A stretch of DNA of 52,281 nt from Verrucomicrobiota bacterium (GTDB lineage: Bacteria; Verrucomicrobiota; Verrucomicrobiia; JAWXBN01), in assembly GCA_034440155.1 (NCBI GenBank), contig JAWXBN010000024.1, positions 1 through 52,281 of the forward strand, read 5' to 3'. Below are positions 13,372 to 15,076 of this stretch, in pieces (the first letter of the stretch is position 1; each line of letters starts with the position of its first letter). Under the pieces are notes generated by a model, which was not told where the DNA came from, did not search any database, and saw nothing but the letters and a program-made list of their open reading frames with translations. The position numbers were made by a program, and so were the translations under genes.

Positions 13372-14532
13372 TTACAGACCGTATTTTAACTCAATATCCT
13401 GCCAACTCATCGCGTTAACGATTTCCATGATGGAAATATTCACATCCTCGATTAAAGGACTATTGTCAGGAAAAGCAAAAGCGTATCGGTCACGGTTTTT
13501 AGTTTTAATCGGTTGAATAATATCATCAAGCTTGAGGATTTTTAATTCGTAATCCAATGCAGACTGGGCCCCGAAGAAAACGTCAATTTTATCTTTATTG
13601 AGCTCGTCGAAACCTTTCTCATAATTTTCATATGAAAGGCAATTTACCCGTCTGTCTTTCAAAATATTTTCCGCTTCAGTCCCCTCGACGACACCGACTT
13701 TTAAACCCTTGAGATCTTGGATGCTATTGACATTATATTTCACAATATTCAGCGTGGCAGTGGATGCAAAAGCGGCTGTAATGACCGACGTCAGGATAAT
13801 CCCGAAAATAATCCAGAAAGTGGAAATAGCCTTGCCGGCGGGGGACTTGGCCACCTTGTCCCCGTAACCAATCGTAGAGATGGTGACCACCGCCCACCAG
13901 AGACCATCTTGTATCCCCTTAAAGAAAGGCCGGCGAAACTCCAGATGATTTGTACGTCTCTCGATAAGCCAGATCATCGACCCGGCAAATGTAAAAATAA
14001 TGATAAGATAAATAAAAATATCGATAAAACTGATTGAAAAAACCAGTTTAATAGTCCCCCACAGTGACGGCGCTAAAGATCGGCTTTTAATGACAACCGC
14101 ATCATTATCATTATAAAAAGGGACTGAATAATCAATATCACGCTCATGAACAGGATTGATCGCAGTAGCAAGGAAAACCACTTGCACCCGGCCTTCCTTG
14201 ATGGCTTTGACCCCGTCACCGGGATCAAGAAGCACTACATCGTAGTCTATATTGCGCCGCTCAGCAATCTGTCCCCATAACTCCACGGCTAATCCGCCCA
14301 ATTCCCCTTTTTCGGATGCAATCACATAAGGAATTTTTGGCTCAAAACCTACCTTGATTTTAATTTTCGGAACCGGAGCCACCGGCAAAATGACGGGTGG
14401 TGGTGGCGGTAGCGGTGGTACTATTTTTTTTTCAACTTTTACCACAGCATGAAGCGTGCAAATGAGAAAAAATGAAATCAGGAAGAATAATAAAAAGCCC
14501 CCTGAATTTAATCTATGACTTTTAAAGGGCAT
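13372..14532 (-). CDS. GluR0-like ligand-gated potassium channel (binding-protein lobes around a K+ pore)
   Basis: A 386-residue protein with the architecture of prokaryotic ionotropic glutamate receptors. Residues 12-28 form a signal anchor, followed by a polyproline linker (39-47). Ligand lobe S1 spans about 58-155 and includes the carboxylate-binding Arg pattern VHERDIDYSVPFY. Then come helix M1 (about 165-190), a pore helix, the potassium filter TIGYGD at 220-225, helix M2 (about 240-256) and ligand lobe S2 to the end. The amino-acid ligand is not predictable. ATG 14532 is used rather than an in-frame TTG at 14562, because it starts 1 nt after the upstream lipoprotein's stop, implying an operon. 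The stop is 11 bp from the lpxA stop (convergent). Confidence 0.85.
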   Translation of the reverse strand: MPFKSHRLNSGGFLLFFLISFFLICTLHAVVKVEKKIVPPLPPPPPVILPVAPVPKIKIKVGFEPKIPYVIASEKGELGGLAVELWGQIAERRNIDYDVVLLDPGDGVKAIKEGRVQVVFLATAINPVHERDIDYSVPFYNDNDAVVIKSRSLAPSLWGTIKLVFSISFIDIFIYLIIIFTFAGSMIWLIERRTNHLEFRRPFFKGIQDGLWWAVVTISTIGYGDKVAKSPAGKAISTFWIIFGIILTSVITAAFASTATLNIVKYNVNSIQDLKGLKVGVVEGTEAENILKDRRVNCLSYENYEKGFDELNKDKIDVFFGAQSALDYELKILKLDDIIQPIKTKNRDRYAFAFPDNSPLIEDVNISIMEIVNAMSWQDIELKYGL

Positions 14533-14533
14533 T

Positions 14534-15076
14534 TTAAAAGGCCTTATTCTGTCCCCAAACAAGTTTTGTCGGCGGCTGATTCAAATGAGTCCAATCCCAC
14601 TGCATATAAAGAACACGTCCATCCGTACACCACCACATAACGATGCCATTACCCGACATAGGATCACAATAACCTTCCCCGAGCTGGACAATAATCCGGA
14701 GAACCGTTGATTGGGGAGTAATTCCTTTGAATTGGTCGGGAGCCAATGCGGGCCTGACTGTCGTAGCATCCAGTTGTCCCATCGCACCAGTTCCTACCGA
14801 TTTCACAAATTCTCGTGGATCATTAATCTGGACACCATTAACAAAAGCGATCCCGTTATTGCCATCATTGGCCAAGTCACGGAGGACAGAGGGGGGTGCG
14901 ATGGCTGCGATCCCGTCCGAATTGGTCGTGGGAATCGCAGTATCCGCGGCACTTCCTGAGGTCGATGTGGAAGGTTTATCCACATTCATGGCAGTACGAC
15001 TCGACTCACATCCCGCTAATAATCCGGCAGTGAGTAACAAAAGACTGAACCGTGTCAAAGGTGATAATCTGGGCAT
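14534..15076 (-). CDS. Uncharacterised lipoprotein, upstream partner of the GluR0-like channel
   Basis: A 180-residue protein with a clear lipoprotein signal peptide: FSLLLLTAGLLAGC, lipidated Cys at about residue 22. A low-complexity Ser/Thr/Ala-rich linker follows (about 24-55). The C-terminal part (about 55-180) is Trp-rich and ends QWDWTHLNQPPTKLVWGQN. I do not recognise the family. It begins at ATG 15076 and ends 1 nt before the channel's ATG, so the two are almost certainly co-transcribed. An outer-membrane or periplasmic accessory of the channel is possible but only inferred from position. Confidence 0.7.
   Translation of the reverse strand: MPRLSPLTRFSLLLLTAGLLAGCESSRTAMNVDKPSTSTSGSAADTAIPTTNSDGIAAIAPPSVLRDLANDGNNGIAFVNGVQINDPREFVKSVGTGAMGQLDATTVRPALAPDQFKGITPQSTVLRIIVQLGEGYCDPMSGNGIVMWWCTDGRVLYMQWDWTHLNQPPTKLVWGQNKAF

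Follow-up and report, generated by a model that had tools for sequence, protein, structure and literature searches.

The 52,281-nt stretch of Verrucomicrobiota DNA analysed here (the window) contains a gene for a K+ channel of the glutamate-receptor type, P0001, which is directly preceded by a gene for a lipoprotein. This arrangement raises two questions: what kind of molecule gates the channel, and does the lipoprotein belong to it as a subunit? In receptors of the GluR0 type, an Arg in the S1 half of the ligand-binding domain holds the alpha-carboxylate of the ligand, and an Asp in the S2 half holds its alpha-amino group. An earlier note on this DNA took the channel to be glutamate-gated and the lipoprotein to be a possible accessory subunit.

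Both ligand contacts are totally conserved across 22 prokaryotic receptors, and it has been proposed that such genes be annotated as glutamate-sensitive (Ger et al. 2010, PMC2950845). For GluR0, the inverted topology and the transport of K+ were demonstrated experimentally; PhoA fusions placed its lobes in the periplasm, in an orientation inverted relative to KcsA, and its function requires the soluble domains, through dimerisation (PMC13099474). A literature search on Verrucomicrobia and glutamate receptors returned nothing on the channels described below. Our answer to the two questions, to which we give a probability of about 0.65, is that P0001 is a GluR0-type K+ channel whose ligand is likely another small solute rather than an amino acid bound by the usual contacts, and that the lipoprotein is not a required subunit.

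Architecture of the locus and of the channel

The channel ORF (386 aa) starts with an ATG at 14532 and stops at 13372 on the minus strand. The ORF of the lipoprotein (180 aa) lies on the same strand at 14534-15076, and its stop is found 1 nt before the channel's ATG, as previously described. Upstream, a gap of 75 nt separates the lipoprotein gene from the end of clpB, which is again on the same strand; on the other side of the channel gene, lpxC-fabZ and lpxA are oriented convergently to it. Codon usage in the channel and lipoprotein genes is near that of the other genes in the window, and a search of the window against Rfam gave no match. The source genome is a 2.76-Mb assembly of 132 contigs and belongs to the same class as the Methylacidiphilaceae; P0001 is its only protein with Ion_trans_2 above the cut-off.

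The assignment of the gene at 13372..14532 to the GluR0 type relies on Pfam, an AlphaFold2 model and a PDB fold match. In Pfam, P0001 matches Ion_trans_2 (residues 176-258, E 4e-13), Lig_chan (residues 172-313, E 1e-10) and SBP_bac_3, which spans residues 59-384 and is split by the pore (E 3e-12). Since all three exceed their gathering cut-offs, the split-lobe layout is far beyond chance. The selectivity filter, T220-IGYG-D225, is intact and of the K+ type (TxGYGD). Among PDB structures, the best sequence match is 2pyy, an 'Ionotropic glutamate receptor bacterial homologue' (E 3e-12). Furthermore, the AlphaFold2 model, built from 60 aligned homologues, has a mean pLDDT of 85.8 and shows a two-lobed fold with well-formed lobes, for which the best PDB fold matches are AMPA receptor LBD-TMD structures (about 370 columns, best E 3e-21). 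Taken together, the Pfam domains, the 2pyy match, the model and the AMPA receptor match show that the layout of a two-helix K+ pore between split lobes is real. On this point, and on the kinship to animal glutamate receptors, the earlier note is borne out.

The domains of P0001 follow the order S1-M1-P-M2-S2, as in GluR0 of Synechocystis PCC 6803 and in 2pyy, and are all encoded on the minus strand. Residues 1-29 (14446..14532) are a probable signal peptide, with a hydrophobic helix at 11-29 in the model. This helix had been described as a signal anchor; by analogy with GluR0, which shares with P0001 a presumed signal peptide and a GYGD-type K+ filter, it is probably better taken as cleavable. 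The next feature, a proline-rich N-terminal linker (P39-P55, 14368..14418), distinguishes P0001 from GluR0 and 2pyy. The claim that this linker is unusual is correct insofar as the 25 residues that precede S1 include 10 Pro, the highest number among about 160 homologues (7 in the runner-up), but shorter Pro-rich mature N-termini recur among the channel's relatives. The S1 half of the ligand-binding domain occupies residues 57-150 (14083..14364) and the S2 half residues 268-384 (13381..13731), as delimited by Pfam, by alignments (for S1, with PDB sequences) and by the model. Between them lie the transmembrane helix M1 (residues 167-191, 13960..14034; model helix and Ion_trans_2), the pore helix (203-219) followed by the TIGYGD filter (220-225; together 13858..13926; Pfam, sequence and model), and the transmembrane helix M2 (residues 231-263, 13744..13842; model helix). 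With a K+ filter inside a split glutamate-binding domain and two transmembrane helices, P0001 resembles the Group 1 prokaryotic receptors of Ger et al. (PMC2950845).

Loss of the ligand contacts

The likeness to the Group 1 receptors, and to GluR0 and 2pyy, ends at the ligand pocket, in which P0001 has lost both the Arg and the Asp. In alignments with 2pyy and with homologues from the class, the S1 Arg for the alpha-carboxylate is absent; the ITxER motif reads INPVH instead, with His129 (codon at 14146..14148, minus strand) at the Arg position. The same alignments show neither Asp nor Glu at the S2 position for the alpha-amino group, where VYDxP reads FGAQS and Ala322 (codon at 13567..13569, minus strand) replaces the Asp. 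An alternative register puts Gly321 at this position, which is likewise not acidic. Two residues past His129 is Arg131, which might conceivably contact the ligand. A register shift that would rescue it as the ligand Arg was considered and rejected, as the alignment is free of gaps and the spacing of N126-P-V-H129 argues against it. With His129 and Ala322 at the contact sites, the label 'glutamate-gated' given to this channel is unsupported. The loss of both contacts also makes a canonically bound amino acid an unlikely ligand, and the pocket residues suggest that a different signal probably gates the channel.

Homologues were collected from 384 genomes of the class at a threshold of E <= 1e-20, and 76 of these genomes were found to have one. 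Both Arg and Asp are retained in 47 of the 84 aligned class homologues (27 with non-K+ filters and 20 with K+ filters), while 14 lack both, 13 lack Arg only and 10 lack Asp only. Arg is thus missing from about one third of the sampled class homologues (27/84), all 27 of which have a GYGD or GFGD filter; hence, annotating such genes as glutamate-sensitive is unsafe. Scanning contigs with the single protein yielded nothing, and relatives were recovered with an alignment query. A scan with the filter motif gave at least 580 confirmed relatives, the best 80 of which are spread over many phyla. Among the 79 homologues aligned from these best 80, a sample that the filter-motif query biases toward K+ types, 66 retain Arg and Asp, 5 have lost Arg only and 3 Asp only; 6 have neither residue (or another residue at both sites), a number that includes one further, unaligned row in the tally of 80. 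GluR0-type channels are common in bacteria, contrary to the claim that they are sporadic.

The strongest alternative to our reading is that P0001 is a conventional GluR0-like channel that responds to an amino acid but contacts it differently, for example with His129 or Arg131 binding the carboxylate and main-chain atoms and other acidic residues binding the amine. Such a channel would have the fold and domain order observed here. Moreover, Arg131 is shared with Methylacidimicrobium-type relatives, and His also occupies the Arg position in channels of Desulfobacterales and Bacteroidales (L096, L145, L151 and L152), probably independently of His129 in P0001. However, Arg-retaining relatives also commonly have a basic residue at the position of Arg131, which is thus no substitute peculiar to the group of P0001. 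The Asp is lost as well, and the Arg slot of other Arg-less homologues is filled with Leu, Gln, Tyr, Ala, Ser, Asp, Glu or Thr, most of which are unable to bind a carboxylate. We consider this alternative unlikely.

Probable kinship with the Methylacidiphilaceae

Phylogenetic trees, from which L014 and L167 were excluded for poor alignment, group P0001 with channels of the Methylacidiphilaceae, with SH-aLRT values of 93 in the class tree and 82 in a broader tree. The branch of P0001 is long (2.3-2.5), and its placement is unsure. The family name was taken from L099 (Verrucomicrobia bacterium LP2A) and L118 (a Methylacidiphilaceae MAG), whose aligned columns match those of group members exactly. 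These channels (L005, L009-L011, L013, L018-L023, L059, L099 and L118) are about 26-35% identical to P0001. Like P0001, they possess the TIGYGD filter, have lost the Arg and are changed at the Asp site; unlike P0001, they have another upstream gene, no adjacent lipoprotein and no equally long polyproline linker. P0001 and 12 Methylacidiphilaceae relatives have Ala, Arg or Glu at the second site and never Asp. The relatives themselves all lack the Arg and have Arg or Glu at the Asp site, the Glu being confined to one genus, in which the charge is kept. In L005, L009-L011, L013, L018-L023 and L059, the channel gene is preceded on the same strand, at a distance of about 60-140 nt, by a conserved gene whose product has about 260-280 aa and the motif N-K/R-E-W-S/T-E.

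The distribution of the Arg requires at least 4 state changes on the class tree and at least 8 on the broader tree, showing that it was lost more than once. Between Arg-less relatives, in pairs that exclude P0001 (which has no close relative), dN/dS is 0.06-0.20. The Arg-less relatives are thus maintained proteins under purifying selection.

A second alternative is a K+ channel with a ligand-free domain that has a structural role, senses pH or ions, or is coupled to tension, with His129 as a possible proton sensor. The cultured relatives are acidophilic methanotrophs, which is consistent with such a role, as are the loss of both contacts and the variety of residues in the Arg slot. The need of GluR0 for its soluble domains via dimerisation (PMC13099474) also agrees with a domain that works unliganded. 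Well-formed lobes in the model and the constraint on Arg-less relatives speak against it, although both are compatible with a ligand-free role. Overall, we judge this explanation improbable, more so than gating by an amino acid.

The lipoprotein gene

The lipoprotein encoded at 14534..15076 (minus strand) contains a lipobox, LLAG followed by Cys23, and its gene has coding-like codon usage. It has no match in Pfam, NCBIfam or PHROG, in agreement with its earlier description as an unrecognised lipoprotein. Neither the 384 class genomes nor a set of 289 genomes from the phylum yielded a full-length homologue. Its last 70 residues, at the C-terminus, are similar to portions of two proteins from the class, L040 (44% over 41 residues) and L174, a small lipoprotein, and neither of these kin was found beside a channel. 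Two other matches were dismissed: a weak one to L041 looked like chance, as it involves a low-complexity stretch in a frame that overlaps a longer beta-lactamase-like ORF, and L017, too, is overlapped by an ORF that is long and unrelated.

The C-terminal domain of the lipoprotein (residues 111-180, 14537..14746, minus strand) has a local pLDDT of 76-93 and appears BamE-like. BamE entries make up most of its top PDB fold matches, which are weak (best E 0.04, TM-score 0.4-0.55 when normalised by target length). The protein is similar to BamE in being a lipoprotein with a small alpha-beta domain; it differs in its long, low-confidence N-terminal part and in having no match to the Pfam BamE profile, even at a maximum E of 10. 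In E. coli, Glu at position +2 after the lipid-bearing Cys predicts an outer membrane location, and Glu is the residue found at this position here.

Could this protein serve the channel as an accessory subunit, by anchoring or modulating it? A single nucleotide separates the two co-oriented genes, such that their translation may be coupled; perhaps they are also co-transcribed, and periplasmic parts are expected for both products. However, among about 160 channel genes, none is preceded by a homologue of the lipoprotein, and in the closest relatives of P0001 the upstream gene is a different one. The BamE-like fold and the predicted outer membrane location argue in the same direction. Given that no similar gene precedes any other channel, the adjacency is best taken as local. 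The accessory-subunit idea was rejected as the main reading for this near-orphan protein and is, in our view, very doubtful; judging from the sequence comparisons, the lipoprotein is most likely an unrelated, co-oriented neighbour of the channel. Unrelated lipoprotein-like ORFs do occur upstream of channel genes elsewhere, with about 456 aa in three Marinobacter loci and 269 aa in one Nitrospirota locus.

Discussion

In summary of the earlier note, its observation is confirmed and its interpretation holds in part, for layout and kinship but not for glutamate gating, the subunit or sporadic occurrence. The least probable explanation of all is a decaying gene that lost its binding residues by drift: the long branch and unusual amino acid composition of P0001 fit this, but the 386-codon frame and the filter are intact, the model is confident, and purifying selection acts on the Arg-less relatives.

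For a GluR0-type K+ channel that responds to another small solute, the following mechanism can be proposed by analogy with GluR0. The channel would be a tetramer whose K+ pore crosses the inner membrane and whose two-lobed binding domains face the periplasm; the ligand would close the lobes, and the pore would open. Passive flow of K+ through the open pore might then change the membrane potential or turgor. In P0001 and the Methylacidiphilaceae channels, in which the Arg is lost and the Asp lost or changed, the pocket would accept a changed class of ligand.

Insect ionotropic receptors are animal channels that are not known to have a K+ filter. They have a glutamate-receptor fold, as does P0001, and the ligand Arg is missing in some members; the similarity reflects parallel loss of the Arg and not kinship. 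Among these receptors, those that sense acids retain the ligand-binding Arg, and those that do not sense acids lack it (PMC8575457). We tentatively propose that in Verrucomicrobiota and a few other lineages, glutamate-receptor-type K+ channels may have repeatedly swapped amino acids for other small molecules, P0001 and the Methylacidiphilaceae channels being one such lineage, and that this would be a bacterial parallel to the insect receptors. If true, a bacterial K+ channel with a new small-molecule gate would bear on how ligand specificity evolves on the glutamate-receptor fold. The channels identified in the survey are specific candidates for ligand screening.

Channels with other pores were also encountered. 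Two paralogues in the source genome, L002 (C106:1871-2890) and L003 (C105:15361-16320), retain Arg and Asp and have the non-K+ filters SGVCIG and TGKSNHK; this one genome therefore encodes three glutamate-receptor-type channels that differ in pore and pocket types. Recurrent non-K+ filter classes in the class are GGADNK, GGCENK, GGCEAK and TGKSNHK. Channels with non-K+ filters include L015, L034, L039, L042, L045, L057, L066-L069, L072, L073 and L076-L090; nearly all of them keep both contacts, and all those within the tree keep the Arg.

Finally, candidate relatives turned up among viral or putatively viral sequences. The channel model matches BFVD entry E3T502 of Cafeteria roenbergensis virus, annotated as an amino acid transporter (404 columns, E 2e-21, but with a high rmsd of 23), and this structural match suggests a glutamate-receptor-type channel in a protist's virus. 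Near full-length GluR0-type channels are also present on two contigs classed as viral, L177 (IMG/VR, 51.6 kb) and L178 (264 kb), which may be proviral or misassigned bacterial sequence.
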